Shown in pieces: positions 7,400-49,371 of a stretch of 60,726 nucleotides of DNA. The notes below the pieces were generated by a model, which was given only the letters and a program-made list of their open reading frames with translations, ran no database searches and was not told the origin of the DNA. A program made the translations under genes and the position numbers. Where the stretch lies: the IMG/VR virus record IMGVR_UViG_3300045131_000496, positions 1 to 60,726 of that record. One strand, given 5' to 3'. Position 1 is the stretch's first letter. Each line of letters opens with the position of its first letter. Origin of the DNA: a virus.

Positions 7400-7404
7400 A
7401 CAAT

Positions 7405-8304: not shown

Positions 8305-8315
8305 GGAGTTTCATT

Positions 8316-12142: not shown

Positions 12143-12531
12143 ACCTCTCTTACTTTGTACTACAGTTGATGGGGCTTGTAGCTACCATCGCTGTACTGGG
12201 TAAGATGTACGTATGGGTTGATGATCCTAGTACTATGAGAAGAAATAAAGATAACTCCATTCATTGGCTACATAACATTTTAGAAGTAGCAATACTTGCA
12301 GGCGTAGGAGCTGCACTAGGTTATATTGTTTACATATCAGCATTAGCGTATGTAGGTGATATCAGTAAGTTGGACCAAGCAACCTTATCAGCAATATCAG
12401 CAGGAGTAGGTATGATGGCAGGTAAGGCTTGGAAAATGACTACAGAAACGGTAGAAATAGTTTTTGAATATGGTTCACAGAAGGTACGTGAAATGTTCAA
12501 AAAGAAAGTAGATCAGTATGACGATGACTAA
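12139..12531 (+). CDS. Putative holin, 130 aa
   Basis: Two clear hydrophobic segments are visible (about residues 3-27 and 45-73), with a third weaker one around 80-100 rich in Ala/Gly (TLSAISAGVGMMAGKAW). A charged C-terminal tail follows (MFKKKVDQYDDD). Size, multiple TM helices, charged end and tight coupling to the endolysin (ATGA) all fit a holin that would permeabilise the inner membrane. I do not recognise a specific holin family. The PAS-domain gene begins 14 bases before its stop, so the three genes are translated as one unit. A second, different holin-like gene lies at 15516, so either one could be the effective holin. Confidence 0.6.
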   Translation: MNLSYFVLQLMGLVATIAVLGKMYVWVDDPSTMRRNKDNSIHWLHNILEVAILAGVGAALGYIVYISALAYVGDISKLDQATLSAISAGVGMMAGKAWKMTTETVEIVFEYGSQKVREMFKKKVDQYDDD

Positions 12532-30595: not shown

Positions 30596-33500
30596 ATGCC
30601 TATATCTGATTTACTAAGAGGAAGCAATGCAGGTAGTAACATTGACTATGTGTCTGCTATACCTAGAGAGGGTCTAGGCTCTGTATTCCTTAATTATGCT
30701 AAAGAACAAGAAGAAGCTAAAGCTAAAGCTGCACAGGAAGCAGAAAAGATTCGTCAATTTAACGTGACTACTGATACCTCTAATAATAGATATGAAGCTG
30801 AACAAGCTAGATTAGCTGCTAAAGATGCAGAAGATTTGCGTAGATATAATTTAGAAAAAGAACAGTTGAAGCTGGATAAAGAAGAAAACCAGAGACGATG
30901 GGATACAACAAACAATAGAGAAGAAGCTAAGTACAAGTATGACGTAGGACAAGATACTATAGGAACAAAAGCAACAGCACTTGCAGGTTCACTAGATGCT
31001 GCTACACTAGGTACAGACTATGCATTTGGTCAATTAGGGGCTATTACAGCTAAAGCAGCAGAGGAGAAAGGCTATAACGCTGCCTATAATAAGTTTGCAG
31101 AAGAGCAGATTAGTCAAGGCAATTTAGATGCTTTTAACGCCAAACAAGCAAGTACAGATAGAAGTGTACTAGTTAAACCTATGTCACAAGCAGAAGCTTT
31201 AACTGAAGTAATATCAGACGGTAAAGTAACAGATAGAACTAGAACATTGCTAGGTATGTCACAAGCTAGTGATGAGGAAGTAGGTAAACGGCTAGGTGAA
31301 CTAAGCGGTGGTAAAAATCAGATTTATAAGCCTATTACAGATGCTTTATATGATGAAAAGAAACTCAACGCTCTAGTTAAAGATGTTACAGACAATATGC
31401 AACAGAGTGAGTATGCATCTCTACTAGGTAGTACAGTCAAGGAATCAGGACTTCTAAGGGGTGCTGATACAGACACACAAAGAAAAGTTACTAATGTACT
31501 AGAAGATCAGACTAAAAATTCTGGTACTGACACACCTGAACAAGTAAAAGCTCAACGAGATACAGCACAACAAAGACTTACTAATACGCTATCAATGCTT
31601 ACTGCATTTAGCCAAAAGGTGCGTGACAGCTCTAGCAAAAAAGGAAATACCAGTCTAAAACTAGATTCTGCAGACGCTCAAGCTATTACTGACGGTACAC
31701 CAGAGGGTATTAGAGGTGTAGTACATAAGATGGTAGCTGGTTTTTCTGGTGGTAACATCATGAAAGATGCTGATGGTGACACTTTTGATGCTGTGGCTAA
31801 CTTTTTCACAGGTAATAAAGCTTCAGATGTTAAGGCTAATATGGAAGAAGCTTTCTTAGAGCTTAATAACAGTAAGTATGCAAATCTTACACCAGACCAA
31901 AAAGCTAATATAGTAAGGACTGCCTCTATTGCTAGTAGTGCTTATGGCAATGCGGATGATAAATGGTTTAGTAGTAGTAACAGTATTGCAAACATAACGA
32001 AGAATCTTGCGGATAATGCTATAAATGGCAAAGGCAGTACTGACGAAGCTTCAATGATTACTCAGTTAAAAGATAACGCACAAAATGCTTATAATGCTAC
32101 ATTAAACCAAGGTGGTTCATCAGCCTCTAGTACACTTGCTAACTATATAGATACAGGTAAGCAAAGATTAACTCCACCTCCAACCATTACTACACCTACA
32201 CAGACACCTGCCGTACCTAGACAGCAAGCAGTAGTAAACCAGACTCCTGTAGCTACACCTAGTAGTACTGCCGTAGTGGAACAACCTACTGCTCCAGTTA
32301 CAGCTATACAACCTACTGATACAAAACAAGTAATACAGCCTAATACAGGCAGTACAGGGACTAGGCTACCAGTAGATAACAATCCTTCTGTAACAGACGG
32401 AACTGCTGGTAATCTACCTAAAAGTTACACAGATCAGATGAAGTTGGTTGATAGGATACGAACTACTGAGGGTGAAGATAGAGAAGCTGCCATCGCAGAA
32501 TACAACAGTAGATATAGAATGCCTGCTCCAACAAGCTCATCTAACCTTACCTCTAGTTTACCAACAAACTATGGTGAGACTTCACTAGATTTACAAAAAA
32601 GTATATTACCTACATATAAGAAAGATATTACTGATAACGGATCTACTACTGACTACAATAATGAAGCAGCAGTAAACGCTACACATGAGTTAAGGGACTT
32701 GTATCAGACAGCAAGAATGTCTGGTAAAGAAGGTGAAGAAGCTAGAGCATCACTAAAAGAAGCTATACCTAGGTTTATAGAAACTTATGGGGTAAAGGCT
32801 ACACCTGAAGAAGTAGTTAAAGACCTAGATAAGTATAACCTTACATGGGCTACTAACAATGATAAAGCTGAGGCTATTGAATATATCGGTAATGCTGTGG
32901 TAGGTTCTGTAGCAGCCCCTGCAAGTTTACTGGGTGCTTTAGGTGTTGGGGCTTTAAGTGGTGGTGCTATAGGTACTTTAGCATCCCCATATAAGAAGAG
33001 TAATGACGGCAACTTTAACATTAATGATACTGCTCATGGTGCTGCCGAAGGTGCTGCAGCCGGCTTACTTCCTGCTGTAGTTTTACGTGGACTAGAAAAA
33101 GCTTATTCCAATGAAGTAGTTAGAGGGGCGTTGTCTGGAGGATGGAAAGAAAGAGAAACTGCAGGTAGTGCATATAACATACTGATTGACAACAATTTAC
33201 CAAAGAACGTATCAGATATTGTAGCTACAGACTACGCTAGAGCTGGCTACGGAAAGCCAACAGACCCTACTACTTTGATTAGTGCTGCAGAATTAAAACA
33301 AAGTATGATAAACCCTAATACAGGTAAAAAAGACTTAAGTACCTATATGCCTAGAGAGGTTAAGGACAGCCTTACTGAAAGCAAAGCCGCACTATCCTCA
33401 GCTAAAACTGATTTAGGTAATTTAACTTTAGCTATTAAAGAAGGAAAACAAAAAGAGGCTGAGCTAGATAAGGCTATAAAGATAGGAGAAAATAGGTTTA

Positions 33501-34234
33501 GAAGAGGTGGAGTATTCCCAGAAGCTGAAGAAAAAGAGCTTGCTAGGCTTAAAGCAGAAAAAGCAGCACTAAGTAGTATGCAGACTATTAGAGAGGCTGG
33601 TCTCAAGCCAGCACAAGCTGAAATAAATAACGCTAAAGTTGCACAGAAAGCAGCAGTAAACAGCTACAAAGAAACAGAAGCAACTATAGGTGCACAACTT
33701 AATAAAGATTATCAAGAGCTGTTATCTGGTAAACATTTGAGTAATGCAGCACCTGCAAGGTTAGCTCTACCCCCAGCAAGTATAAAAGTACCTCCTGGAG
33801 GGTTTTCAACTCCGGCAGGTCTAGCTTCTACATCTTCTGGAAGTAATTCAGCTATTGCTACTGCAGTGGCTACAACTGCACCTAAAAGTAGTCTTGCGCC
33901 AACGGTAGTGCCGACACCTCCTCCTACTCCTGTAACAGCTGCTGCTCCTACTGTAGCCACTACTATACCGAAAACTGTACTGTCTGTACCTGGCACAGTT
34001 GAAGATCTTACTAAACTGGGTGCTGCTGATGTAATTAGTATTGTAAATAGCGGAAATAAAGATAGCCTTCTCGCTAGTTTAGATGCCGCAATAAAAAGTA
34101 ATATACCAGAAGTTGATAAGAAATTACTACAAGAAAAAAGAGACGCTGTAGCTAATTGGACTCCATCATTAGATTTAGATAACCTAACTGCTTTATTAGA
34201 TGGAGCGGAATTGGTACAAAGTATAGGTAAATAA
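30596..34234 (+). CDS. Large internal/ejection protein, 1212 aa, Cys-free
   Basis: A long helical start with coiled coil (about 35-110, rich in KAxEE). A helical body follows, then a Pro/Thr/Gln-rich linker (about 520-600), a glycine- and alanine-rich hydrophobic stretch around 765-795 ('GNAVVGSVAAPASLLGALGVG'), another coiled coil (~920-1030) and a second Pro/Thr-rich linker (~1070-1130). There is not a single Cys. This make-up resembles the big internal proteins of podoviruses that travel with the DNA into the host. I see no recognisable enzyme motif. The start follows AAGGAG; it is followed one base after its stop by the transglycosylase-like gene. Confidence 0.6.
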   Translation: MPISDLLRGSNAGSNIDYVSAIPREGLGSVFLNYAKEQEEAKAKAAQEAEKIRQFNVTTDTSNNRYEAEQARLAAKDAEDLRRYNLEKEQLKLDKEENQRRWDTTNNREEAKYKYDVGQDTIGTKATALAGSLDAATLGTDYAFGQLGAITAKAAEEKGYNAAYNKFAEEQISQGNLDAFNAKQASTDRSVLVKPMSQAEALTEVISDGKVTDRTRTLLGMSQASDEEVGKRLGELSGGKNQIYKPITDALYDEKKLNALVKDVTDNMQQSEYASLLGSTVKESGLLRGADTDTQRKVTNVLEDQTKNSGTDTPEQVKAQRDTAQQRLTNTLSMLTAFSQKVRDSSSKKGNTSLKLDSADAQAITDGTPEGIRGVVHKMVAGFSGGNIMKDADGDTFDAVANFFTGNKASDVKANMEEAFLELNNSKYANLTPDQKANIVRTASIASSAYGNADDKWFSSSNSIANITKNLADNAINGKGSTDEASMITQLKDNAQNAYNATLNQGGSSASSTLANYIDTGKQRLTPPPTITTPTQTPAVPRQQAVVNQTPVATPSSTAVVEQPTAPVTAIQPTDTKQVIQPNTGSTGTRLPVDNNPSVTDGTAGNLPKSYTDQMKLVDRIRTTEGEDREAAIAEYNSRYRMPAPTSSSNLTSSLPTNYGETSLDLQKSILPTYKKDITDNGSTTDYNNEAAVNATHELRDLYQTARMSGKEGEEARASLKEAIPRFIETYGVKATPEEVVKDLDKYNLTWATNNDKAEAIEYIGNAVVGSVAAPASLLGALGVGALSGGAIGTLASPYKKSNDGNFNINDTAHGAAEGAAAGLLPAVVLRGLEKAYSNEVVRGALSGGWKERETAGSAYNILIDNNLPKNVSDIVATDYARAGYGKPTDPTTLISAAELKQSMINPNTGKKDLSTYMPREVKDSLTESKAALSSAKTDLGNLTLAIKEGKQKEAELDKAIKIGENRFRRGGVFPEAEEKELARLKAEKAALSSMQTIREAGLKPAQAEINNAKVAQKAAVNSYKETEATIGAQLNKDYQELLSGKHLSNAAPARLALPPASIKVPPGGFSTPAGLASTSSGSNSAIATAVATTAPKSSLAPTVVPTPPPTPVTAAAPTVATTIPKTVLSVPGTVEDLTKLGAADVISIVNSGNKDSLLASLDAAIKSNIPEVDKKLLQEKRDAVANWTPSLDLDNLTALLDGAELVQSIGK

Positions 34235-34235
34235 C

Positions 34236-35021
34236 ATGACATACGCTATACCAAATCAATACTTTGATACTATCGTAGGTAACGGTAAGTACAGTATCCC
34301 TTCTAAACCACTCACCAGTATGACCTTTGGTGAGTACATGGCTTATGCACCTCAGCTAATTGAGGCAACTAGAGGAAAGAAAGAGCTAGGTTTAGAGGGC
34401 ACAGGTAAAGGTACTAGTGCTTCTGGTGCTTACCAATTTACTGCAGAAACTACTAAAGATATAGCCCCTATGGTACTAGGTGAAAACTGGCAATCACAAA
34501 AAATGACACCAGAGAACCAAAGGCTGATGGCTTCTAAGTTATTTGATATCCGTAAAGGAGGTAATTTAAAAAAGACATGGTCTAGTTTACCTAATGCCGA
34601 AGAAGGTGCGTATTCCAATATGACATTCGACGAAGTAGAGCCTATTATCGTAAGAGGTGAGGTAGGTTATACTGGTGATTCTAAACCTATTACTGCAGTT
34701 GCCAACAATACAGCCCCTTCTAACGAGTATATGAATATGTATAAAGACATGTCAGATAGGCTAGATAGAAGAGAGGCTTTACTGGATGAACGATATAAAC
34801 AATCAATGGCAGATAGGAAATATGCAAATAGTTTAGCTTCAATGGAGCCTGTTGTGCAAGCACCTGCTATGCAAGAAGAACAAGCAGAGCCTATAACTAG
34901 ATTAGCATTACCTAGTTATAATCCACAACCATTAGACTTGAGTGTAGCTAAACCATATGTACCAAATAGACTAGCTAAAAGCAGGCTAGGTAAGTTACTT
35001 TTACAAGGAAGTGCAGGATAG
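34236..35021 (+). CDS. Virion-associated transglycosylase-like protein, 261 aa
   Basis: Residues ~28-115 contain 'MTFGEYMAYAPQLIEATRGKKELGLEGTGKGTSASGAYQF' (core TSASGxYQFTxET), with a following 'LGENWQSQKMTPENQRLMASKLFD'. This is the lysozyme/lytic transglycosylase fold seen in phage virion hydrolases that open a local hole in peptidoglycan during ejection. The catalytic Glu is most likely in the 'KKELGLEGTG' segment, but I cannot fix it. The C-terminal half is charged and helical and probably anchors it in the particle. No Cys. It lies directly ahead of the virion RNA polymerase. Confidence 0.55.
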   Translation: MTYAIPNQYFDTIVGNGKYSIPSKPLTSMTFGEYMAYAPQLIEATRGKKELGLEGTGKGTSASGAYQFTAETTKDIAPMVLGENWQSQKMTPENQRLMASKLFDIRKGGNLKKTWSSLPNAEEGAYSNMTFDEVEPIIVRGEVGYTGDSKPITAVANNTAPSNEYMNMYKDMSDRLDRREALLDERYKQSMADRKYANSLASMEPVVQAPAMQEEQAEPITRLALPSYNPQPLDLSVAKPYVPNRLAKSRLGKLLLQGSAG

Positions 35022-35080: not shown

Positions 35081-38000
35081 ATGTTATCCAACTACTACAA
35101 TAATCCATATATCGCATCAGCTACCTTAAATGAACCTGCTCAAGGTGTCGAGGATACAGATGAAACAAGTTTAGCTGCTGCTAAAGAAGATAAGCTCCGT
35201 AAGCTAGCTGAGAAGAAGGCTACACTTACAGCCGATAAACCTTTCACCTATGAACAGGCTGATTACGCAGACTTGACTAAGGGCACGTACACAGTAATGC
35301 CTGACGGTAGAAAAGAAGATAACTCTAATAAGATCTACAATGAGTTGTCACCTACCGAGTTGCAAGCAGTAAAGGGACTAGGTATAGCTAAGTATGCGCT
35401 AGAGCCTGATAAAGCTACCGGCAAGGTGTATATGACTGACTTAGAAGGAAATAAGCAGGAGTATAACGGCCCTACTGAAAGACTCTACATGGGTAAGGGT
35501 AAAGGGCCGAATGGAGAGGATATATTCAAGCTGGGCATTAGCGCCCCAGGACCTACCCCTGAAGCTATGATTGGCACTAAGTGGGAGGGTATGGACCCTT
35601 CTATAGTTCGCTATGATTCAGAAGCGGCTAAGTACTTTAAACTAGGGAGTGAGCGTAAGCCTTATGGTTGGGCATCTGGTCCTGAAGGGATAGATACATC
35701 TACTATGCAGAGTGTACTGCTACCCTACAACGTAGCTAAGGTAATGGAGGCAACGGATCACGGTAACAAAAGTGCTATGGCTAACCGAGCAGTTCCAGGA
35801 CTTAGTTCTGAAGGTAAAGAACGCTTCGGTCAAGGGTACGGTGAGTACTACAAGAACGGAGTTAAAGGTATGTTTGGTGATGTTAACCAAAACCTATCTG
35901 CCGAAGAGTACGATAAGGTTATGGGTACAGCTGATAAATTCCTGGCAGAGCGGATAGCACAGCAACAAGCTTTAGATCCACGTAACGGTATTGTAGATAA
36001 AGCAGCGTGGGAAAAGCACGTAGCTAATAAGCAAGCTGAGTACAAGTACAACACAAACAGTCTAGCAGATAACTGGGGCAATGCATTTAAAGGGGCAGCA
36101 GCATCCGCAGGTACAGGTGTACTGAAATTAGTTGATGCCTTACAAGAAGCCGCTACATTACCTTACCAAGCTGCTACAAATGCTATTGGACGATCATTAG
36201 ACCCTAAGTATAAAGATAGGGATATAGACCTAATAAAAGATGAATGGGTAAAAGCAGGAGAAGGTAACTTAGATAAGTTATTTGGGCATGATAGAGCACT
36301 TACTGATTACGCTTCACAGAGGGCTAAAGAGGAGATGGAGAAGGCTAAAATAGACCTCACTAGTCTTGACAACTTAACTGATCTAGCTACTAACAAAGAA
36401 AGGCTTTCTCATGTAGGCGATGTAGCAGGTATAGCTGCTTATAATCCTGCAGTAGTTACTAACTCTATAGCAGAAGTGCTAGGCGAAGGAGGTGGATTAA
36501 AAGCTATTGGTAGCGTTGCACTAAAGACTATGGCCGCAGTCGCCCCTAACCTAGCTAAGTCCGTAGAAGGCGTACTAACTACTAATAGATCGGATGTCAT
36601 AGCTAAGGCAAAAGAGATTAAAAGTAGAGAAGATCTTACAGATGATGCTAAAAGAGCTGCTATAAAAGAGGTAGAAAAGGAGTACACAAAAGGTAAACTA
36701 GCTGTTGACTTACTTAAAGGTAGTGCTTTCAGTAACGCTGACGCTATGGTACGTATCGATAATGATATCGATAAGTACAAAGAGAATAACGAAGGAGAGT
36801 CCCCTACTGCCGGTAAGCTACTTCAAATTGCAGTTACGGATAAAATTCTTGCCGAGATGAACGTACTATCCGCTAAAAGTGCTGTAGGACTTGATACACC
36901 AGTCAGTTCGTTATCTAGTAGTGCTATAACTGGAGCTATTAAACAAGCAGGTGCTGCTGTACTGCATGTAACAGGCAGTATCGGTAAAGAAGCTATTCAA
37001 GAAACGATTGATAGCATAGGGGAGCAAGTAAACCAAAAGTATAACAGTAAGGAGTTCAAAGACGCTACTGTAGGTGACATTATCAGAGAGAGCAGCACTG
37101 AGATCGCACTAGGTACAGTACTAGGCGGTGTAGGTGGCGGTTACATGGGCACTGTAGGGGCCATAAAGAATAATGTAATAGGCCCTTTGGTTGGCCAGGC
37201 AGCGCCTACGGTAAGTGCTGCTTCCTCTGCCGAGAAATCAGTAAAAACAGACATTTCGCAAGCAAAAGAGCAAGTAGGGGAAGAAGTTACTCCAGCTGTG
37301 CAGTACTTTAGAACTTTAGCAGAAGTAGACAAAGATTTTAAATCGGGAGTTATTACTAAGGACAATGTAGTTGACTATATTGATAAACTAGAATCAATGC
37401 AAGAGTTACGTTATGGTTTAAAGGATGTTCCAGAAGGTTTAGTTGCATACCAAGACGCTAGGTACTTAAACTTAGCTAATCATATTAATTCGTTTATGAC
37501 AGATGAAAATGCTACTGATGAGCAGTTAAAACTACAACGAAAATTACCCACAACGCTTCCCGACCCAAGTACAGCGTCTGCCCCTACGGATGCGACATTA
37601 GGTTCAGAAGAAACTACAGTAGTAGGTGCAACTGCAAGTAGTATATATTCAGATGCAGATAGAAAAGCTGATGCAGAGAGGCTACTTCATTTTGCTATAG
37701 ATTCGCTAGAGTTTACACCAGATCAGGCAGACATTATTGGCAGTCGCTACAGTAGATTTGCTAAAGCAAATGGGGTAGAACTAGAAAGATTAAATACGAT
37801 TATCAAGAGTTATGCAGCAGTAGAGGAAGAAGCATCTATAGGTAGACGTAGCTGGTTATCGTACGAGAACAAATTAGACGCTCTGATGAGTGCTACTGTG
37901 CCTAATACTAAAGCTATCGAAAGACAGTATAGACAGCTGAATAACTGGTTAGCTACTACAAATAATGCAAAGTTAGATTTAGAAGAAGGTATCGCTGCAG

Positions 38001-41000
38001 CAGAACAACTAGCTACGGATAAGAACAAAAAGAAAATTAGTTTTAGTTCTAGTACAGAAGCCTTCAAGACCCAGTATAGGAAGATTGGAGGAAAGCAATT
38101 TGAGATCAATATTAGTTATGACCCAAGCACAAAGAAATGGGTTGCAGATACTACACAAGCCCAGAAACTAGTAGAACTTAAGCAGCATAATGCAGAAGAG
38201 TTAACTAGAGTGTTAACGAAGTACAATACAAAAGCTTCTCAGCTGATTGGGGAGCTACGTAATGAAGGTACTCTAATTATCCCAGAAGCTGGTATTAATA
38301 CTTCTACAGGGATGAGTAAAGCTAGAGCTTTAGACACAGGGCATATCAAAAGTGCCATGACTAGGTTAAGTAATGTTACTGGAACTGCCCCGGGAGTTAC
38401 TAAAGTAATTTTAGATACTCAGAAGAGAAAGAATGAGACTCCTCATAGCAGTAAGTGGGATAATAAGTACGATTACTATAGGGTTAATAGACCTCTTATT
38501 AATAGAGGAGAGTATCACGAAGGTGAAGTAGTATTGCTTAATGCAATGGGTAGTGTAGTGCATAGCAAGTCTAAACGTAGTATTAGTAGTTTGTATCTAG
38601 CTGATTCTATAGCTGCTAAAGAGTTAGGAAAAGCTTTAGATGCCAGATCTACTATTCTACTAGATAGGGATTACATTGCCAGTAAAACCAAAGGATACAA
38701 GAATAAAGAAGGCGTATTTAAGGTTAGTGAACGTGCTGGAGGGTTAAACTCCAAAGGTCAACAAGTCAGTAATTATTTAGAGAGTAAAGGGTACGTACAA
38801 GTCCCTGGAAATCCCGCTCTATTTGTACACGCAGAGAGTAACAAGAAAGCGATAGAGGCTGCAGAAGAGTCACTAAAAGCAGCACAGAAAGAAGCTGCTG
38901 CTTTAGCTAGAGACAAGAAAGCATTAGTAGCGACATCTGCACAGCTAGATTGGTTGTATACTTATAGAGACTCTTTAGATGAGGTAGAGCAAGCTTTAGT
39001 AGATATTATTAGAGTGGCAGAGAAAAAGTATGAGGATCTTCGCAGTAAGTTAGAAAGCAAATTTCAACCTTCAGTACTAGAAGAGTTTAAGCACATGGCA
39101 AGTGTAGAAGAAGGCAGTGTTGAAGAAGATACCGCAGCAGTAGAAGGAGTAGAGTTTGACGGAGATGTCAAAGAAAGCAGCACAGAGCACGAAGATCTAG
39201 ATACCGCACTAGGTAGTGTAGCAGTAGACACTAGGTTAGTTACTGCAGCAGATAGAATGAATAGATATATAGAACGACGTAAAAGAGAGTTAATCGAACA
39301 AGCTGATGACACTTTGAGCATTACCAGTATTGACTTAGGGGTAGAGACCAGAGACGGTGTAGAGTATGTAAAAGGTTTGGATGCTTCCTATAAAGCTATG
39401 ATGGCAGACCTTAAGCGACAAGGTAAAGAGCATTTCCAGGATGTACAAGAAGAAGTACAAGAAGTGCTGAACAAGTGGAAAAAATATGTGGCAGATGGTT
39501 ACAGAGGGGAAGAACTCAGTAGTAAGATTGACAATGACCTAGACGCTATTTCAGACCTAGGTATTGCAGTAGGTAGTGTAAATATCTCGGAAAGTTTACT
39601 AGAGTTATGTATGGGTAAAGGTAAGCCTCAGATATATGAAGTAGTTATGAACGTAATGGGTAAGGATAAAGAGGGTAAGTATACAGTACCCAAAGGTAAA
39701 AGAGTTAGAACAGCTCTTACACAAAGTAGGGCAGATGAGTTAAAAGCAGAATTTGGTACTGTAGTAGACGGTCATGCAGGGAAGATTGTAAAAGAAGAAA
39801 GACTTACATATATTACTACAAGGGCAGTAAGTTTAGATCCTAATGAATATTTAACAGTAGGTAAAAACCCTACACTACTAAGTAAGTTTGCGGTAAGAGT
39901 ATTTGACGCTATTGACGGTCCTACCCAGACTATTATTAAGACTATCGAAAAAGTGCTGGTTAAACCTAGTGGGGTAGAGAAAGGGGATGTAGGGTTTGAG
40001 GTTGTAGATAAAGATGATAACAGTAAGTTCAATATTTACAACTCACCTGCTAGAGCTATCATTTTCAGTACTGCAGGTAAAATATCTCCACAAGTAGCAG
40101 CAGCTATGCATCTAGCCTTAGCAAGCACTATCGTAACGGATAAAAGTAAGCTAGTTAAAGGGTACAAGGATGATGAAGCTATTGCAGCTATGTTTGGTCT
40201 TAATTCAGTTGCTGCGGTTACAAATAGAATGAGAGCTATAGCAAAAGAACACGGAGCACTACGGAAAACAGTAGCTAACTCACTAGGTAAGGAGATATTA
40301 TCTCAGCTAGGTATTAAGGCTAAGAGAGGAGATGATACAGCAATTGGCATGTACGAAGCTATGGCTACAGACCTAGGTAATACAGCACTAGTTATTGCAG
40401 AAGAGATGGGCTTAGTATCTAGCAGCGAAGTTGCTTCCAAAGATATCGCAGAGATGAAGAAAGGGGGTACTAGTGTAGGGTTTACAGGAGAAGAAGTTAC
40501 AAAGTTTGTAAACTTAACTAGTGGTGCAGATGGTAAAAAAGTAAGTGTTAAGGTACAGAAGTACGAAGAAGCTTACCTAGAGTATGATAAGGATATTCCA
40601 GGCATTACTACGTTAAAAGTAGGACCAGAGTTTAGTCCACATACTGATGCAGAAGTAGGTAGAATGGTATCGGAAGTAAGAAACGATATGACTCACAATT
40701 TAGAGATAGCACCTGCTGCTAGAAAAGCTTTAGAAGGCATGATTAACACTAAATTTAAGATAGATGTGGAAGGTGCGGTAGAGCTGATAGAACTATACAA
40801 AAAAGGTGAGGGCATAAAGAGGCAGCTAGGTTGGCTTCCTTTAGAAGGAGAAGAATTTGATAGACTGTCATATGCTAAGAAAGAAGTACAAGAGGCTATT
40901 AACAGAGGTATCGAAAAAAGCTTTAGCAGTTTAGAAGAGCTTATTAAAGCGAAGAATGAAGGTCGTAACGAGCATGATCATGAGAAGGATATCAACGTAT

Positions 41001-43306
41001 GGTTTAGACATTTTTATGCTACCAACGGTCGTTATATGATCGATAGTAACACAGTAAACCCTCATACAGATAAGATACATAGGTTCTTAGTGCAGCCTGC
41101 ATCGTTTAGAGTTACTCATGACATCGAAGGTACTGGTGGGGCTAGGAAGTTTAGCGTTATTAAAAACGGAAAGGTGTATCGTACTAGCCTATACGTTAGA
41201 TTTGCCTTAGCTCAAGCATTTGGTTACGATATTGATAAAAAAGATCCTAATGAGACAGTAGAGTTTGGGAATATGTTGTTGTCGTTGGGCAAGGAGCAAT
41301 TACTAGCGATAAAGAAGACTATTACAGAGAATGATGGTAAAGAAGGAGCAGCAGTAGCAGTTGTTACAGTTAACGGCAAGGCTACTAAATTAAAGGCAGA
41401 CCACATTAGCCATACACTACAAGCTTTAAATTTCTTGATTAAAGCTTCGGGTACTAATAAGGTAACTAGTTCTCTTACAGCAGAGTATGACTCCATTACA
41501 AATGGTTTTGGTAATAAGTTACAGCAGATGCCTATATTAGGTGTAGAAGGGTTTGATGCCAATGTTATGAATGAGCATTTCGCTCGTACAGGAGTATTAG
41601 CTAGTTCGCTTATAGAGAATAAAGAAGAGTTTTTTACTACCTTTCAAGGAGCTATCGTTGGGGGTATTAACTCTATGTTAGGTAATGATAGTACGTTTAA
41701 AGATTCGTACCAGAATCTAGCAGTTACTGTCGGTGAGTATATACAAACGCTAGTAGATAAAATCAAACATGAGGATTTCTGGAAAGAAAAAGGTAAAGTT
41801 AGCCCAGGTAAGCCTACGTCTTCCGTAAAGGTAGCTACTGCTATATTTAACCTACTACCAACCAAGATGGATAGTGAAGGCAAAGTATCTAAAGAGCTAC
41901 GTACGTTGTTCAAAAATCCGTTTATGGTGTTTAACTACGCTGCAGGTATTGCTACTATTAGAGAGAATCTAGGTGAAGAAGTAGTGATGGAATTTTTTGA
42001 AAAGTTATCGAAAGGAGATCAAGAAGTAATAGATGCCTTTGTACAAATGGATACTACTATAACTAAAGCTGACGGCACCAAAGTAAAGATTACTAAAGAC
42101 AATAGCGGGCTTTTAGTAGACTTTGCTAGAAATAATCCTTTTAATAGTTCTAAGCTAGCAATTATGGATAGTACAGCTTCTACGATTTTATTATCAGTAG
42201 TGGATAAGTTGTTCGGAGAGTCTGTAGAAAACACATTTAAGAAAAACTTTGGAGCCTTTATTGAAGTACAGGAAGCTACCAATGATGCGTTTAGGTTGAG
42301 TTTCTTTAGATTTGAGACTAAGTTTAATGAAGCTTTCAAAGAGGTGTCTAAGAAAGGGTATGTTACCGCAGAAGAGGAGAAAGCGATTGTCTCTAATCTA
42401 TGGGATGAATTTCCTTGGATTATGGGACCTCTTAGTGAAGGGAGCAAAGATGTAATTGCGGTAGTTAGTAAAGCAGCTATTACAGATCCTTTACGTGCTG
42501 GTAGAGCTAGTCCATCAGTAAAAGCTATTAAAGGTGGTAAGGAAGTTTCTATTAGTGCTAACACTATTATGTACAAGATGGTAGCTGCTGCGAGTGCAGG
42601 TGCAGTAATTCCTTTCCACTACATAGATGGCGCAGAAATGGCTAAGATGTATAATAGTTTTAAGGATGGCTTAGTAAGTGAAGAGATGGGTATATTAACT
42701 ATCCATGATGCAAAAATGGCTCCTATCCACCATACAGGAGAAACAGGCTGGATGTACAACAGGAGCTTTCATGAAGTAGGTAGAGACTATAATCTTTTAG
42801 ATCAGTTAGAAGAAATGACTAAAAGATGGAAGACGGATGACATGCCAGAAAATACTACAGTTACAGGTTTGAAGATTAGTAAAGGTGATGGCAAGGAGAT
42901 GAAAGCGTTACTTTACGAAAAAGCAGTATTAGATTTACAAAGTAAAATAGCTAGGTTGGCAGATGCTAATAGGAAAGCCAGAGAAGTGTATCAAGCGAAT
43001 AACAAGGAAGGCTCTACTACTAAGTACAAGTATCAGAACCTGATAGGGACTCCTGATCAAATTTACACACCTGGGGAAGAGAAGTATAATGGAGACAAGG
43101 TACTTGACTATTTTGACGGTAGATATAGTACGGTAACGGGTATTGGGGTAGATTCTATGAGTGGAGTTAACGCTGAACCTACAACAGACATACAAGCAAG
43201 GTATGCCTTTATTATGCATCAGTACAATAGTTTAGGTGATAAAGAGCTTATAGCTTATCTAGAAGAAAATTTTAAAGTCGAAAATATTATCAGAGGGTGT
43301 TTCTAA
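35081..43306 (+). CDS. Virion RNA polymerase, first polypeptide (N4 gp50-like), 2741 aa
   Basis: All four motifs of a T7/N4 single-subunit RNA polymerase are present in order. TNGR (T1981-R1984) is followed by a T7-like 'NPHTDKIHRFL'; motif A has catalytic D2137 in 'EYDSITNGFG'. Motif B is R2274-x3-K2278-x7-Y2286; motif C is H2542-D2543-A. Spacings (153, 141 and 265 from R to D to K to D) follow N4 vRNAP (about 135, 111, 281 from memory). The polymerase domain should cover ~1560-2660, after a ~1550-residue N-terminal region with coiled coils and a Gly-rich hydrophobic stretch near 700. It is packaged and ejected to transcribe early genes. Only two Cys: C1510 and penultimate C2740. The stop overlaps the next start (TAATG). 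Confidence 0.88.
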   Translation: MLSNYYNNPYIASATLNEPAQGVEDTDETSLAAAKEDKLRKLAEKKATLTADKPFTYEQADYADLTKGTYTVMPDGRKEDNSNKIYNELSPTELQAVKGLGIAKYALEPDKATGKVYMTDLEGNKQEYNGPTERLYMGKGKGPNGEDIFKLGISAPGPTPEAMIGTKWEGMDPSIVRYDSEAAKYFKLGSERKPYGWASGPEGIDTSTMQSVLLPYNVAKVMEATDHGNKSAMANRAVPGLSSEGKERFGQGYGEYYKNGVKGMFGDVNQNLSAEEYDKVMGTADKFLAERIAQQQALDPRNGIVDKAAWEKHVANKQAEYKYNTNSLADNWGNAFKGAAASAGTGVLKLVDALQEAATLPYQAATNAIGRSLDPKYKDRDIDLIKDEWVKAGEGNLDKLFGHDRALTDYASQRAKEEMEKAKIDLTSLDNLTDLATNKERLSHVGDVAGIAAYNPAVVTNSIAEVLGEGGGLKAIGSVALKTMAAVAPNLAKSVEGVLTTNRSDVIAKAKEIKSREDLTDDAKRAAIKEVEKEYTKGKLAVDLLKGSAFSNADAMVRIDNDIDKYKENNEGESPTAGKLLQIAVTDKILAEMNVLSAKSAVGLDTPVSSLSSSAITGAIKQAGAAVLHVTGSIGKEAIQETIDSIGEQVNQKYNSKEFKDATVGDIIRESSTEIALGTVLGGVGGGYMGTVGAIKNNVIGPLVGQAAPTVSAASSAEKSVKTDISQAKEQVGEEVTPAVQYFRTLAEVDKDFKSGVITKDNVVDYIDKLESMQELRYGLKDVPEGLVAYQDARYLNLANHINSFMTDENATDEQLKLQRKLPTTLPDPSTASAPTDATLGSEETTVVGATASSIYSDADRKADAERLLHFAIDSLEFTPDQADIIGSRYSRFAKANGVELERLNTIIKSYAAVEEEASIGRRSWLSYENKLDALMSATVPNTKAIERQYRQLNNWLATTNNAKLDLEEGIAAAEQLATDKNKKKISFSSSTEAFKTQYRKIGGKQFEINISYDPSTKKWVADTTQAQKLVELKQHNAEELTRVLTKYNTKASQLIGELRNEGTLIIPEAGINTSTGMSKARALDTGHIKSAMTRLSNVTGTAPGVTKVILDTQKRKNETPHSSKWDNKYDYYRVNRPLINRGEYHEGEVVLLNAMGSVVHSKSKRSISSLYLADSIAAKELGKALDARSTILLDRDYIASKTKGYKNKEGVFKVSERAGGLNSKGQQVSNYLESKGYVQVPGNPALFVHAESNKKAIEAAEESLKAAQKEAAALARDKKALVATSAQLDWLYTYRDSLDEVEQALVDIIRVAEKKYEDLRSKLESKFQPSVLEEFKHMASVEEGSVEEDTAAVEGVEFDGDVKESSTEHEDLDTALGSVAVDTRLVTAADRMNRYIERRKRELIEQADDTLSITSIDLGVETRDGVEYVKGLDASYKAMMADLKRQGKEHFQDVQEEVQEVLNKWKKYVADGYRGEELSSKIDNDLDAISDLGIAVGSVNISESLLELCMGKGKPQIYEVVMNVMGKDKEGKYTVPKGKRVRTALTQSRADELKAEFGTVVDGHAGKIVKEERLTYITTRAVSLDPNEYLTVGKNPTLLSKFAVRVFDAIDGPTQTIIKTIEKVLVKPSGVEKGDVGFEVVDKDDNSKFNIYNSPARAIIFSTAGKISPQVAAAMHLALASTIVTDKSKLVKGYKDDEAIAAMFGLNSVAAVTNRMRAIAKEHGALRKTVANSLGKEILSQLGIKAKRGDDTAIGMYEAMATDLGNTALVIAEEMGLVSSSEVASKDIAEMKKGGTSVGFTGEEVTKFVNLTSGADGKKVSVKVQKYEEAYLEYDKDIPGITTLKVGPEFSPHTDAEVGRMVSEVRNDMTHNLEIAPAARKALEGMINTKFKIDVEGAVELIELYKKGEGIKRQLGWLPLEGEEFDRLSYAKKEVQEAINRGIEKSFSSLEELIKAKNEGRNEHDHEKDINVWFRHFYATNGRYMIDSNTVNPHTDKIHRFLVQPASFRVTHDIEGTGGARKFSVIKNGKVYRTSLYVRFALAQAFGYDIDKKDPNETVEFGNMLLSLGKEQLLAIKKTITENDGKEGAAVAVVTVNGKATKLKADHISHTLQALNFLIKASGTNKVTSSLTAEYDSITNGFGNKLQQMPILGVEGFDANVMNEHFARTGVLASSLIENKEEFFTTFQGAIVGGINSMLGNDSTFKDSYQNLAVTVGEYIQTLVDKIKHEDFWKEKGKVSPGKPTSSVKVATAIFNLLPTKMDSEGKVSKELRTLFKNPFMVFNYAAGIATIRENLGEEVVMEFFEKLSKGDQEVIDAFVQMDTTITKADGTKVKITKDNSGLLVDFARNNPFNSSKLAIMDSTASTILLSVVDKLFGESVENTFKKNFGAFIEVQEATNDAFRLSFFRFETKFNEAFKEVSKKGYVTAEEEKAIVSNLWDEFPWIMGPLSEGSKDVIAVVSKAAITDPLRAGRASPSVKAIKGGKEVSISANTIMYKMVAAASAGAVIPFHYIDGAEMAKMYNSFKDGLVSEEMGILTIHDAKMAPIHHTGETGWMYNRSFHEVGRDYNLLDQLEEMTKRWKTDDMPENTTVTGLKISKGDGKEMKALLYEKAVLDLQSKIARLADANRKAREVYQANNKEGSTTKYKYQNLIGTPDQIYTPGEEKYNGDKVLDYFDGRYSTVTGIGVDSMSGVNAEPTTDIQARYAFIMHQYNSLGDKELIAYLEENFKVENIIRGCF

Positions 43307-45231
43307 TGAATTGCGAAGCAGATGCTCTAGTAGGGGCTATTGATTGGTTTTATAAGAATAAAGCCAATAACGGGGAAAAGGTTAATGAAAGTAATAAGAA
43401 AAAAGCCGAAGATTTTATTAGTCTTTTGCGAGCTACCTTTCCAGAACCTTTTGAAAAAGGTGCTAATGCAGTAGCGAAGGCATTAAAAAACAAAAAAGAA
43501 AACCCGTCTCTGTCTGTTAACTATAAAGGTAAAAAGTCAGGCATATCTAAAAAAGAGGCTATGGAAATAGTGTCTGGTATGTCTTTAGAGGCTAAAAAGC
43601 TAGTAGAGAAGGGTAAAGTACAGTTTGTAGATAATACTTTTATTGCTAATCTACTGCAACATACTGCCGATAATTTTGGGTTTAATTCAAGAACCCTAGA
43701 TGATATAAAAGAGGATTTTAGACTTTCGATTATTGGAACTAGCTCTAGGAAAGCAAGAAATGAAGGCTTATCAGCAGCAGTAAACGGAGGTAAAGACACT
43801 GGTTGGGAGCTAGGTTTAGACGGAAATTTTAAGTATAGGATAAAATCTAGACCACAATTAAAAGTAGCTAATTTCAAAGCCGGTGTTTACGTGTTACCTG
43901 ATTTAGTGGACTATCCAGAACTGTTCAAAGAGTACCCTTATTTAGAAAAATTAAAAGTACGCTTAATAGAAGATAATCAAACAGAAGTTACTGGAGAATA
44001 TAGTGTATTAGATGACGTTACAGTCAATATAGCTAGGCTTAATACTAATTCTCTAGACCAAAGTTTTTTAGAGGCGCTTGGTCACGAAGTTCAGCATTCA
44101 ATTCAGTTTACAGAGATGTGGGATAGCGGTAGTAATATCAATTCTTTTAAAACAAGTAGCAGAACTTCTGTTATTGCAGAAGATTACCAAAAGATTTTCA
44201 AAGCTCTTGATAGGTTAAAGGCAGATCGTCCAGAGCTTTACGATAGTTTAGTAGGTTTGTTGAAAAATGCAGATTTACAAAAGGTAGCAACTAGTGATGT
44301 AGGTAAGTTACTACTTGCTTACTCAGGACGTACTAGTGAAGAGTTTGTTACAAGATTAGGTAAAAGGCTACAAAACATAGTCACCAATGAAAATGGTACA
44401 GAACTTATGGGCTGGGTTGCTCAAGAGGTTTACTTAGAAGGTTATGGTGAAGTTGAAGTTAGAGCTGCAGGAAGGCATTGGTCAGGATTAGATAATTATA
44501 ATGTAACAGATGCTAATCCTTCAGTAACTGTAAATAGAAGCGCTAGAGAGCTGCCTGTTGTAAGTGCAGTGCAAGGTGCTTACGTAAGAAGTGATAATGC
44601 AGGTTTAGGAGATCCTAGAACTAGTTACATCAATATTAATGCGGTAGATAAAGATAGTATTAAAGGCGTATTTTTACATGAGGTAGGGGTGCATGCTTTT
44701 ATCGATATGCTGAAAAGTAAGCGTTACGATAAAGAAGTAGCACAAGTGCTAGATTTAGCTACTAGATTGTTAGAAAGAGGATCAGCAAGCAGTAATAAAA
44801 AAGTAAGAGATTTTTTTACTGGGGTAGAGCTACGGTTAGCAAAAAGTAAAAGTTTAGGCAACTTAGAGGAAGTATTGGCGTACATTATAGAAGAAGCAGT
44901 AAATGTGCTAAAAGAAGATAAATTAGTAGATATTAACAGTACTATGGAATCAGTAACGGCTCAAATAAGTAAGTACATATCACCAGTAGTAGCAAAATTA
45001 ATCGAGGAAGTAGTGAAACTAGTGGATAAGTACTGGAAAAAAATATCAGGAGATATAGGTGATATACAAATTCAGTTGGACCTAGATAACTTATTACTGT
45101 TTGCGCAAGAAGGGGTAAGATCAGTTAGTGAAGGTAAAGTAGTAGAACTAGTATCCTTGGATAGAGCTTCTAGTGACAACGCTTTAGCTAGACTGTATAA
45201 TAGTATCATCAATAATACTTTATGCGAGTAA
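43306..45231 (+). CDS. Virion RNA polymerase-associated second polypeptide with zincin motifs, 641 aa
   Basis: Start taken at ATG 43306 (TAATG overlap, AGAGGG at 43292-43297); a GTG nine bases upstream is the alternative. Two zinc-peptidase-like signatures stand out: 'LGHEVQHSIQF' (H260-E261-x2-H264), typical of zincin domains in large phage polyvalent proteins, and 'FLHEVGVHAFID' (H458, E459, H463). In N4 the polymerase is one ~3500-residue chain with a C-terminal domain after the catalytic part; this protein and the next occupy that place as separate chains. The only Cys are C3 and penultimate C640. Proteolytic activity is inferred only from the motifs. Confidence 0.65.
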   Translation: MNCEADALVGAIDWFYKNKANNGEKVNESNKKKAEDFISLLRATFPEPFEKGANAVAKALKNKKENPSLSVNYKGKKSGISKKEAMEIVSGMSLEAKKLVEKGKVQFVDNTFIANLLQHTADNFGFNSRTLDDIKEDFRLSIIGTSSRKARNEGLSAAVNGGKDTGWELGLDGNFKYRIKSRPQLKVANFKAGVYVLPDLVDYPELFKEYPYLEKLKVRLIEDNQTEVTGEYSVLDDVTVNIARLNTNSLDQSFLEALGHEVQHSIQFTEMWDSGSNINSFKTSSRTSVIAEDYQKIFKALDRLKADRPELYDSLVGLLKNADLQKVATSDVGKLLLAYSGRTSEEFVTRLGKRLQNIVTNENGTELMGWVAQEVYLEGYGEVEVRAAGRHWSGLDNYNVTDANPSVTVNRSARELPVVSAVQGAYVRSDNAGLGDPRTSYININAVDKDSIKGVFLHEVGVHAFIDMLKSKRYDKEVAQVLDLATRLLERGSASSNKKVRDFFTGVELRLAKSKSLGNLEEVLAYIIEEAVNVLKEDKLVDINSTMESVTAQISKYISPVVAKLIEEVVKLVDKYWKKISGDIGDIQIQLDLDNLLLFAQEGVRSVSEGKVVELVSLDRASSDNALARLYNSIINNTLCE

Positions 45232-45234
45232 CCT

Positions 45235-48200
45235 ATGAGCTCATGCCGTTCACAAACTAAACAAGAGATAGAAGCAGTAAAAAATGACTACAAAGCTAAA
45301 CTAGTCGAAGGTAGGGTATTAGCTTCTGACGGTACTTCTTACGAAGCTAGTTACAAGGCTATAGAGAGTGCGGACTCAGTAGATTCTTTTATTAAAGGAT
45401 CTAATCTTAGACTAGGTAGAAGTACTATTACCAACAACTTCATAGAAGAGCTAGGAGAAGTTCTAGCTATAGATAGAACTAGTTCTAATGGGACCAAGAG
45501 AGTTAAGGCAGAAGTTCTTAACGTCAAAGTAATAGACGATGTTACTATTCTAGCAGCTAAAGTTGATAATGAAGTAGAAGTTATTAGTTTTAATAGGTAC
45601 GGAGAATCTACCGAAGTAGGCGGTATAAAATATGAGATTCCAGGATTAAAAGCAGCAGTAGAGTCTATCAAGAATAAAGGTAGAAGAGTAAAGCTAAGTA
45701 GTGAAGCAAAGGAGCTGCTGCAAGGGAACATAGATTTAGGCAGTAGTTCACAAAAAGGGTTAGTAGATTTACGGGACTATGTAAAACAAGAAGATTATGA
45801 GCATGGTAACGTAGAGCATATGGTAGGTATGCTGCATAAGTTGAATGGTATTAGTAGAAACCCCTCTACACAAGAGTTTATACAACACGCAGAAGGACTA
45901 TTAAAAGGGTTACATAACCATTTTTTACGTGGTATGAATTTGTACCTAAGAGAGAACGCAGATACCAGTTCAGGGGTAGTCTCCTTGGCAAATAACGCTA
46001 TTGCTATCAAAGTAGGAAAAGATAAACCAAAAAGTACCTATGCTACTGATGCAGAGGTGTACCTAGAAGAGGTACTACATACAGCTACAGCTTTTGCTTT
46101 TAGAAATAACAGTAATGAATCTAATAAGTTAATTAGAGAGTTACGTTACTTAGTTACTACAGCTCAGGCTAAAACTAGTTGGAAAGATTTACTTAGGGTG
46201 CAGGAAAGTACGGCTACAGAAGAAGACATTAAAAACGCTAAGGAGCTGTACAAGTATGTATTTAGTAGTGAGAATGCAGATGAAGAGTTCTTAGCTAAGG
46301 GTTTATCTAACCCAGCAGTATACAAGCATTTTCAGTCTATTAATGTACTAGGTTCAGAAGGTAAAGCTACTACAATGTATCAGAAGATTATGGATTTCTT
46401 TTACAAGTTGATGGATGTAGTACTAGGTAGGTATAACTTTGCAGATAGCAGTAAGAGTGCAGCAGACAAATTGACAGAGTTAGCTATTGGGCTCAGTGAA
46501 GTTAACTGGAGAGCTCAAAGCAAGGTAGAGGATATTGGCGTATTAGGCACTATTAATGATAGTATTAATGACCTAGATAATGCTATTGCAGGTAAGCTAA
46601 AAGAGTTTTACGATAATGTACTATCTAATGATGATCCTATAGAGAGACTGCCTCCAGACGCTAGTGTAGTAGAAAAAACATTGTTTATGGCTAAATTTAT
46701 TGGTAAAGCAGTAACTAACAAAGAGTACAGAAAAGCTATGGCTTTAGTTGCTGATGGGTTAGGACTGAAACAAGAAGGTACAGTACAGGAGTTTTTAGCT
46801 ACACAATTTGAAGAGAGCGAGTCCAAACAAGCAGCAAACTGGTTAAAGTTAGCTAATGATATGATTGATAATCAAAGAAACTTAGTTATATCAAGTACAG
46901 AGAATCACATTAAGAAAGCTTTTACTAGACCACTGTCAGAAGCAGAAGAAGTAGCTATTACTAGAGCGTTAATCGATACTAACCTAGGGCATTTAGCGTA
47001 TTATAGAGATAATGATAAAGGAGTTACTAACGCAAGACTACGAGAGTGGTTGACAGATGATAAAGTGTTGTTGAATCATATATATGAAGTACGGCAGAGG
47101 GTTCTAGACTCTTTATCCAAAACACCAGAAAGAGCTAATTGGGTAGCTAATCAGGCGCATGGTTTAGGGTATTATATGGCTACAGGTTTGACTAACGAAC
47201 AACAAAACCTTAGTGGCTTAAACATTGTAAGAGGTATTGGTACTAACCAAAGATTTGAAATAGACGATACACTACTAGCTAATGTAAAAGAGTTAGCAAC
47301 ACTAAATGCTGTTAGATATACTAACCAAGAATATAGGAATACTCTTGCTGAGTTGTTAAAGACAGAGTACGAAGGAGTTAAAAGAGTAGCTAATATCTAC
47401 GAAGCTTTCAAAAACGACTCTAGTAACAAGTTATTTAGTAAAGATCCTATTCACATGATTGATGGATACTCTAAGGAACTATTTGACGATACGGTAGTAC
47501 AAGCAGTAGTTCCTATTAGCAGAAAGCAAGAGATGGAAGATGCAGGGTATAGATACGTAGGTAAGTTGCCTAAGCATGCTTCTATAGTAGATGGTGATGC
47601 CTTAGGGGTGTTTATCTCAGAGGGGTATACTAAGGTAGAGAGGCTTAGAGGAGCAGTAAATCTAGGGGGGCTATCAGCTAAGGGTAGCTCGCTTAAAGAG
47701 CAGAAATATAACGAAAATCCAGTATTAGCAGGTGCTTTGTTTGAAAGAGATTTAATACGTTTACAGAGAGCTTCAAACAAAATAGCCATAGAAATGACTA
47801 AGAGTAGTTATGACCCAGCCAAACACGTTACTGGAGTTTCCCCAGTTTACGATAATATGGGAGAAGTAACAGACTTTAGGTATGTAGCCAGCAAACGTAA
47901 TAAAGAAGAGTGGTTAGGTCAGAACCTCAAAGTTTCAGAAGTACTAGCTAGAAGTATGGGATCGGTAGTAGATAAGACACATAAAGAGGTACAGAACAAA
48001 AGAGTACTAGAGTTTCTTAAGAAAACAATGGAAGAGCAATGGGAAGGAGGAGAACTAGGTAAAGATACGATTACCAAGTTTACACTTATAGGTCCTAGAG
48101 TTGCAGATCGTAAGATGAGAGAAACTTATCAGATGCTACCATCTAACATTAGAGAATGGGTATCTAACAGACCAGATCAGACATTAGCAGTTCCTAGTGA

Positions 48201-49371
48201 ACTGTTGAATATACTTTTCGGGTATCCTCATATGTCTTTAGCTAACATAGAGGTATTAAAACAGCTACCTAAGCTAATCTCTTCTGTAGTTAAAATAGCA
48301 GAAAATTTTTGGTTTGATTTTATAAAAATACTCAAAAGTACTATCTTGATTAGAATACCTCAGATTTTAATTACTAACATTATATCTAATGCTATTTACG
48401 TCATGAATACAGGTACTCTCAGTATTCCAGAGCTAGTTAGGATGCATAGTGAGAGTTACAGAGACGTAAAAGAGTATATGAACAACCATAAGGAAGCTGT
48501 ACGTTTATCTGTTATGATCAAAGAACTACAAGCTCAATACAATAGAGCAGGTAACAAACCGGCTATTACCGCAAAGATCAGTTCATTAAAGGCAGCTTTA
48601 GAAATTAAAGAACGTCATATGAAAAGCAGTAAAATCCATGAGTTAGTAGAGGCAGGGATGTTTCAGACAGTAGTAGAAGACGTAGAGACCTCTTCTCTTA
48701 ACACCAATAACAAGATCACTAGTTTTCTAGATGAGGTTACAGGAAAACTGCCTGGTGTTATTAGAGAGCCTGCAAGAATATTATACCTAAGTGACTCCAC
48801 AGCTTACGCAAAAATATCTAAAGAATTTCTGCAACTATCAGATTTAATGGCACGAGATATGGTGAATAGAAGACAGAAAGTGCTAGAGATGCAACAGGCA
48901 GATGGAAAGAAACCCCTACCTAGAGAGTTCCTTAGTTGGTACGAAGAAACTTACCATACTGAGTTAAACCCTCAACAGAGGTTGGTAGGTGAAGTTAGAG
49001 AGGTGTTTCTGAAAAAGGCTAAGGAATCTAGACACTATAATTTACTTAAGAGCTTTATTAACTATAACCAACCTAACGGCAGATTTGAGGAGTGGTTAAA
49101 TAGAGCAGGGTTGTTTATGTTTACTAAGTATGTTAAGAATATTCAGAGGATTATTACTCAAACTTCAGTAAACCATCCAGTCAAAACTATTTTGTCTTTG
49201 CTAACTTTTCAGTTTTTGTTTAATCAAGATATTATTCATGATCAAGCGTTTATGATAAAAGGGTTTGGTCAAGACGGTGAGTTTGGCTTGACCAATATAT
49301 TCCCATTTTATAATCCTTTAGATAGTATATTAACGGTAGTAAACCCACCGTTAATTCAGCTTGTTACCTGA
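45235..49371 (+). CDS. Virion RNA polymerase-associated third polypeptide, 1378 aa
   Basis: In the same frame as the previous gene, separated from it only by TAA and one codon. Length matches the C-terminal domain of N4 vRNAP (about 1400 residues, from memory). It has a decayed zincin-like 'LEEVLHTATAF' (E278-E279-x2-H282, first His replaced by Glu). A hydrophobic stretch lies near 1022-1065 ('FWFDFIKILKSTILIRIPQ', then 'LITNIISNAIYVMN'), and the end carries a conserved-looking 'AGLFMFTKYVKNIQRI', as in C-terminal domains of large phage polyvalent proteins (LPD38-like). The single Cys is C4. There is only weak ribosome binding (GAG), so translation may depend on coupling. Probably ejected with the polymerase. 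Confidence 0.65.
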   Translation: MSSCRSQTKQEIEAVKNDYKAKLVEGRVLASDGTSYEASYKAIESADSVDSFIKGSNLRLGRSTITNNFIEELGEVLAIDRTSSNGTKRVKAEVLNVKVIDDVTILAAKVDNEVEVISFNRYGESTEVGGIKYEIPGLKAAVESIKNKGRRVKLSSEAKELLQGNIDLGSSSQKGLVDLRDYVKQEDYEHGNVEHMVGMLHKLNGISRNPSTQEFIQHAEGLLKGLHNHFLRGMNLYLRENADTSSGVVSLANNAIAIKVGKDKPKSTYATDAEVYLEEVLHTATAFAFRNNSNESNKLIRELRYLVTTAQAKTSWKDLLRVQESTATEEDIKNAKELYKYVFSSENADEEFLAKGLSNPAVYKHFQSINVLGSEGKATTMYQKIMDFFYKLMDVVLGRYNFADSSKSAADKLTELAIGLSEVNWRAQSKVEDIGVLGTINDSINDLDNAIAGKLKEFYDNVLSNDDPIERLPPDASVVEKTLFMAKFIGKAVTNKEYRKAMALVADGLGLKQEGTVQEFLATQFEESESKQAANWLKLANDMIDNQRNLVISSTENHIKKAFTRPLSEAEEVAITRALIDTNLGHLAYYRDNDKGVTNARLREWLTDDKVLLNHIYEVRQRVLDSLSKTPERANWVANQAHGLGYYMATGLTNEQQNLSGLNIVRGIGTNQRFEIDDTLLANVKELATLNAVRYTNQEYRNTLAELLKTEYEGVKRVANIYEAFKNDSSNKLFSKDPIHMIDGYSKELFDDTVVQAVVPISRKQEMEDAGYRYVGKLPKHASIVDGDALGVFISEGYTKVERLRGAVNLGGLSAKGSSLKEQKYNENPVLAGALFERDLIRLQRASNKIAIEMTKSSYDPAKHVTGVSPVYDNMGEVTDFRYVASKRNKEEWLGQNLKVSEVLARSMGSVVDKTHKEVQNKRVLEFLKKTMEEQWEGGELGKDTITKFTLIGPRVADRKMRETYQMLPSNIREWVSNRPDQTLAVPSELLNILFGYPHMSLANIEVLKQLPKLISSVVKIAENFWFDFIKILKSTILIRIPQILITNIISNAIYVMNTGTLSIPELVRMHSESYRDVKEYMNNHKEAVRLSVMIKELQAQYNRAGNKPAITAKISSLKAALEIKERHMKSSKIHELVEAGMFQTVVEDVETSSLNTNNKITSFLDEVTGKLPGVIREPARILYLSDSTAYAKISKEFLQLSDLMARDMVNRRQKVLEMQQADGKKPLPREFLSWYEETYHTELNPQQRLVGEVREVFLKKAKESRHYNLLKSFINYNQPNGRFEEWLNRAGLFMFTKYVKNIQRIITQTSVNHPVKTILSLLTFQFLFNQDIIHDQAFMIKGFGQDGEFGLTNIFPFYNPLDSILTVVNPPLIQLVT
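49330..49354. other. Hairpin at the convergent gene ends
   Basis: TTAACGGT (49330-49337) pairs with ACCGTTAA (49347-49354) around a 9-base loop. It lies in the last codons of the + strand gene and covers the stop codon of the - strand gene. There is no good T-tract on either strand, so termination is uncertain. Confidence 0.35.

Follow-up and report, generated by a model that had tools for sequence, protein, structure and literature searches.

Phages of the Schitoviridae have to drive protein cargo in the megadalton range along a tail channel of about 35 angstroms in width, and how the virion RNA polymerase (vRNAP; gp50 in phage N4) passes and is activated is an open question (PMC12633501). 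The C-terminal domain (CTD) of the N4 protein inhibits the RNA polymerase (RNAP) domain, promoter binding does not release the inhibition, and a flexible RNAP–CTD linker has been located at residues 2102–2123 by cryo-electron microscopy (PMC12633501). The scarcity of cysteine in intact vRNAPs has already been noted and tied to disulfide avoidance (PMC2784036, PMC3715699, PMC3915230), its absence being linked by the authors to passage through the tail and the disulfide-forming periplasm (PMC3715699, PMC3915230). In PMC10654107, Alteromonas phage AD45-P1 and phage pSb-1 were noted to be without a full-length vRNAP, for which gene-calling mistakes or stop read-through were suggested and the open reading frames (ORFs) concatenated. 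Here, the vRNAP locus of an N4-like phage is described from IMG/VR record IMGVR_UViG_3300045131_000496, a 60.7 kb record analyzed over its whole length of 60,726 nucleotides (nt) and referred to below as the window. Its polymerase is divided into three chains, and cysteine is found, with a single exception, only at the chain ends that face one another. The same placement is conserved in nine further genomes, and these cysteines probably tie the separately encoded chains by interchain disulfides into a head-to-tail strand that would be released by reduction in the cytoplasm.

A virion RNA polymerase in three chains

The window carries recognizable portal, major head protein, tape-measure-like and ribonucleotide reductase genes, and three consecutive ORFs, chains 1, 2 and 3, each open over the full coordinates given in Table 1. 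Chain 1 matches the vRNAP family phrog_2206 (E = 3e-62, best stretch at profile positions 781–1958), and chain 3 matches positions 2280–3282 of the same profile (E = 3e-117); alignment to the N4 family by hhalign gives E = 2e-49 and 1e-99, respectively. Homology to N4 gp50 is therefore found over both the RNAP domain and the CTD. In a profile alignment, the N4 catalytic residues R1421, D1556, K1667, Y1675 and D1948, as listed in PMC2784036, correspond to R1984, D2137, K2278, Y2286 and D2543 of chain 1 and are identical at all five positions, so motifs TxxGR, A, B and C all retain their catalytic residues. Since all five are kept there, the polymerase is complete within chain 1. The joint between RNAP and CTD is placed by hhalign between N4 residues 2041 and 2228 (placement of chain ends on N4 by MAFFT was unreliable), an interval that brackets the N4 linker.

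Two features set the window apart from gp50: three separate ORFs stand in place of one chain of about 3500 residues, and five cysteines, four of them at facing ends, in place of none. The five are C1510 and C2740 of chain 1, C3 and C640 of chain 2, and C4 of chain 3. Taken together, the profile matches and catalytic residues support the view that the window encodes a divided vRNAP, as proposed in a first-pass annotation that was made from the nucleotide sequence and that also gave the overall coordinates and the lengths of the three proteins correctly. Its cysteine count needs amending from six, with five at facing ends, to five and four; the residues that it listed (in GCF, MNC, LCE and MSSC, plus C1510) are nevertheless correct and sum to five. 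Homology and gene position suggest that the chains are packed in the virion and ejected.

Cysteines at facing ends in ten genomes

The same division was found by alignment-based scans, whereas searching IMG/VR for exact peptide patterns taken from individual proteins of the window gave no matches. The split set comprises ten genomes, known here from DNA alone: the window, AD45-P1, L009, L010, L015, L016, L017, L109, L110 and L119. All nine other loci split the vRNAP at the RNAP/CTD joint used in the window. The first homologue found, in the cultured phage AD45-P1, consists of ORFs of 2481 and 1409 aa whose only cysteines are C2479 and C4. In L009, L010, L015, L016 and L017, all from IMG/VR, chain 1 has a single cysteine, at its end, and the CTD chain a single one, at its start. 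The rule had already been stated when L109 and L119, with two chains, and L110, with three, were retrieved, and all three conform; chain 1 of L110 is cut at the start of its locus. Altogether, the ten genomes provide 22 chains, 12 junctions and 40,894 residues, in which 24 of the 25 cysteines sit at facing ends. Every facing end has exactly one cysteine within four residues of the end (24/24; 12/12 junctions), and no outer end has any (0/19).

Conservation of these cysteines contrasts with the variability around them. The split is shared at roughly 31–65% identity among the ten genomes, and that of AD45 recurs in four isolates. Chain 3 is mostly 31–39% identical across sublineages, and in its first ~180 alignment columns, where the other sequences are 21–28% identical to the window, Met1 and Cys4 alone are invariant in the ten, a mark of strong purifying selection that acts on one residue. 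The cysteine is likewise invariant in chain 1 tails that otherwise cannot be aligned; the tails at the junctions read GCF, LCE, HCKQ, NSC, ICK, GCK, ECK, LCKGK, TCK, KCVG, TCKGK and HC. At the DNA level, the two ORFs at a junction may overlap by 1 nt or lie as much as 26 nt apart, the stop codon may be TAA, TAG or TGA, frame offsets of 0, 1 and 2 occur, and both cysteine codons are in use, the residue remaining constant while codon, spacing and stop vary. Given that the junction DNA, stop codons, gaps and frames differ in this way, selection acts on the protein, and neither frameshift errors nor read-through nor a bias from ribosome sites can account for the set.

Two observations on members of the set may be added. 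The vRNAP locus of L119 lies in a metagenome bin labeled as an uncultured Sulfolobales archaeon and is probably a misbinned phage contig. In AD45-P1, a small protein is annotated as a thioredoxin (L120:47327-47572), which may be connected with ribonucleotide reductase or with the thiols of the vRNAP.

Unsplit homologues

The 55 unique unsplit vRNAPs (190,131 aa) hold six cysteines in all; 50 are Cys-free, and none of their 110 ends carries one. Comparison of facing with outer ends in the split genomes (24/24 vs 0/19) gives a Fisher P of about 1e-12, and the confinement of 24 of 25 cysteines to the 96 residues at facing ends, in a total of 40,894, gives a naive binomial P of about 2e-62; both values overstate significance because related genomes are treated as independent. 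As a baseline, cysteine occurs in the last four residues of 8.9% of the other ORFs of these phages and at positions 2–4 of 2.7%. The junction cysteine is thus kept in every genome with this split and absent from the ends of unsplit vRNAPs, the comparison among homologues that the first-pass annotation had called for, and its view that the placement is not random holds across the ten split genomes. Among more distant unsplit relatives, L113 has two internal cysteines, L114 five and L115 none; L113 is sister to the split clade in the tree, and its cysteines lie away from the joint. The vRNAPs of L113 (L113:761-13399, 4212 aa) and L114 (L114:74-13258, 4394 aa) are also unusually long, and their internal cysteines are unlike most of the family.

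Middle chains and additional domains

Chain 2 of the window matches, over residues 163–277, the polyvalent phage protein family phrog_13543 (F116-like), with no other PHROG match and none in a Pfam search; an AlphaFold model of this chain alone was meaningless, with a predicted local distance difference test (pLDDT) score of 34. The middle chain of L110 (776 aa, L110:7226-9556) has cysteine only at C3 and C774. No similarity is detectable between the two middle chains (E = 0.26), and the window and L110 are not sisters in the tree. It follows from this dissimilarity and non-sister placement that middle chains have probably been gained more than once, in each case with cysteine at both ends. 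F116 itself, in which a protein matches chain 2, has two giant adjacent ORFs and was set aside: there is no facing-cysteine pattern, the upstream part examined ending with several cysteines and the downstream start having none.

HExxH motifs occur in chain 2 of the window (residue 260), in the middle chain of L110 and in the chain 1 tail of L109 (L109:2196-9530), which suggests a putative metallopeptidase cargo in the ejected strand. In addition, the L110 middle chain (7226-9556) holds HLTVLGF...HISLA, a segment reminiscent of paired 2H phosphoesterase motifs; this fold occurs in some anti-defense proteins. An HExxH motif is also found in the CTD of N4 and of 37 of 59 unsplit vRNAPs; it is kept in the split genomes L015, L016, L109 and L110 and reads EExxH in the window (45235-49371, residues 273–282) and five other split genomes. 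For chain 3, a model that spans residues 1–450 reaches a pLDDT of 70 and is uncertain over residues 1–62, consistent with a flexible tether; a PDB fold search with this model gave no significant match.

Proposed role of the end cysteines

The vRNAP of this clade is encoded as two chains, one with the N-terminal domain (NTD) and RNAP and the next with the CTD, or as three with an inserted chain, cut at the flexible RNAP/CTD joint, and keeps one cysteine at each end that meets a partner and almost none elsewhere. In the arrangement that we consider probable, facing cysteines would form interchain disulfides in the virion, so that a single strand is ejected through the narrow tail, and the bonds would then be reduced in the host cytoplasm, where the RNAP chain would part from the CTD. 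Given that the unsplit family is largely Cys-free, yet cysteine sits exactly where chains meet, the thiols most simply join the ends. A chain with one cysteine cannot loop on itself, and the bond would therefore preserve a threadable strand. Since the CTD inhibits the N4 RNAP, the polymerase could also be set free by breakage of the bond in the cytoplasm. A phage virion held together by interchain disulfides is known in Agrobacterium phage Milano, in which such bonds between virion proteins are to be broken before or during infection (PMC10811340). The joining of chains, already put forward in the first-pass annotation, gains indirect support, as only partner-facing ends carry cysteine and middle chains carry two. 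A fuller version is more tentative: the assembly may be a redox-cleavable polymerase string that is threaded in a fixed order, with CTD inhibition lifted by reduction and new cargo links added by way of a cysteine at each end.

Several points weigh against this interpretation. Phages are assembled in a reducing cytoplasm, and oxidation would be needed after lysis, in the particle or during passage through the periplasm. Two-cysteine middle chains could cyclize or self-pair, and C1510 is an additional cysteine in chain 1 of the window. The split genomes form one clade in the tree (100/99); as the clade appears to have a single origin, they do not represent ten independent events. Furthermore, in another clade, L097 (3699-13468) shows a candidate NTD/RNAP split (1092 + 2164 aa, with a 4-nt stop/start overlap) without end cysteines, from which it follows that not every divided vRNAP uses them. 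The rule therefore concerns this clade and its RNAP/CTD joint, and no such claim is made for divided vRNAPs at large.

Of the other roles conceivable for the cysteines, binding of a metal such as zinc, or a non-covalent interface with free thiols, would explain the pairing of facing ends equally well, and four thiols from two junctions could meet, as vRNAP is present in about four copies in the N4 virion (PMC12633501). Each junction, however, offers two thiols with no consistent histidine or aspartate beside them, and the tails show no other common residue, which makes this option unlikely. Homotypic links, chain 1 to chain 1 and chain 3 to chain 3, or binding to a third protein are also compatible with several vRNAP copies per N4 virion (PMC12633501), and pairing partners are unreadable from sequence. 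Against these, the cysteines sit exactly at partner-facing ends and never at outer ends, an inserted chain brings cysteine at both ends in two lineages, and the upstream neighbor proteins examined have none; we regard such links as improbable.

It is far less credible that a sequencing or gene-calling error, or read-through of the stop codon or frameshifting, conceals a single chain, as in the published reading of AD45-P1. GenBank does flag a potential frameshift in AD45-P1, and vRNAP genes fragmented by error exist, such as pSb-1, in three ORFs, and L069, which is 99% identical to the intact L046. In contrast, the split described here recurs in ten genomes at roughly 31–65% identity with differing downstream starts and frames, and lacks the consistent frame relation and open downstream frame of programmed frameshifting or read-through (offsets 0, 1 and 2; gaps of −1 to 26 nt). 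A read-through product would have no need of a conserved cysteine on either side, and error-type breaks carry none: pSb-1 has no end cysteine, and the frame of its second ORF stays open over the 40 codons that precede the annotated start. Together with L069 and L087, it was rejected as a break of the error type; in pSb-1 and L069, end cysteines are lacking, and near relatives are intact or the frames continue open past the break. The split of L076 is ambiguous. Finally, an origin of the end cysteines as a side effect of nucleotide signals where genes end, or of selection being relaxed at protein termini, is equally remote, for although cysteine is present among the last four residues in 8.9% of the remaining ORFs of these phages, the counts are 24/24 at facing, 0/19 at outer and 0/110 at unsplit ends, and spacing, stop codon and cysteine codon all vary.

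Surroundings of the locus

The features of the locus are collected in Table 1. The three proteins encoded upstream were annotated at first pass as Cys-free, which they are. Elsewhere in the window, a 378-aa ORF (12518-13654), with the gene of an M15-type peptidase on one side and the portal region on the other, contains PAS domains, an odd content for a late cluster.

Table 1. Chains, cysteine codons and upstream neighbors of the divided vRNAP in the window
Feature	Position	Strand	Basis or remark
vRNAP chain 1, 2741 aa; NTD and single-subunit RNAP catalytic domain	35081..43306	+	phrog_2206, hhalign
Middle chain (chain 2), 641 aa counted from the ATG	43306..45231	+	phrog_13543; Cys only at 3 and 640
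vRNAP chain 3, 1378 aa; equivalent of N4 vRNAP CTD	45235..49371	+	phrog_2206, hhalign
Cys1510 codon, chain 1; sole non-junction Cys in the ten split genomes	39608..39610	+	
Cys2740 codon TGT, chain 1 (penultimate), facing chain 2	43298..43300	+	
Cys3 codon TGC, chain 2; faces chain 1	43312..43314	+	
Cys640 codon TGC, chain 2 (penultimate), facing chain 3	45223..45225	+	
Cys4 codon TGC, only Cys of chain 3; faces chain 2	45244..45246	+	
Upstream neighbor, 224 aa, no Cys; "ejection protein" is the first-pass label	29910..30584	+	no PHROG match
Upstream neighbor, 1212 aa, no Cys; "ejection protein" is the first-pass label	30596..34234	+	no PHROG match
Upstream neighbor, 261 aa, no Cys	34236..35021	+	matches virion structural protein family

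Comparison with known systems

No description of the end cysteines was found in the open-licence literature, and the cysteine pattern of AD45-P1 is absent from the portion of the text of PMC10654107 consulted. If the proposed linkage is true, separate chains joined into a strand by removable links would represent a new way of ejection through the tail; this would point to a means of lifting CTD inhibition and to how phages add passengers to the ejected set, and would provide a general and simple design for reversible end-to-end linking of proteins. The present results also correct the interpretation published for AD45, in which its split was put down to gene-calling mistakes or read-through.

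Among described systems, pSb-1 and L069 resemble the window in having a vRNAP in several ORFs and differ from it in the lack of end cysteines. The disulfides of Milano join tail sheath, tube and baseplate proteins whose folded domains contain many cysteines; end-to-end ties between ejected proteins are not involved there. N4 gp50 shares with the window homologous NTD/RNAP and CTD regions, the five catalytic residues, a near absence of cysteine and a place after the ejection-protein genes, whereas it is one Cys-free chain of 3500 residues and the window has three chains with cysteine only at facing ends, save C1510. Alteromonas phages vB_AmaP_AD45-P1 to P4 (Efbeekayvirus) have the same joint and the same facing cysteines (C2479 of 2481, and C4) with no others, and differ from the window in having two chains, not three.

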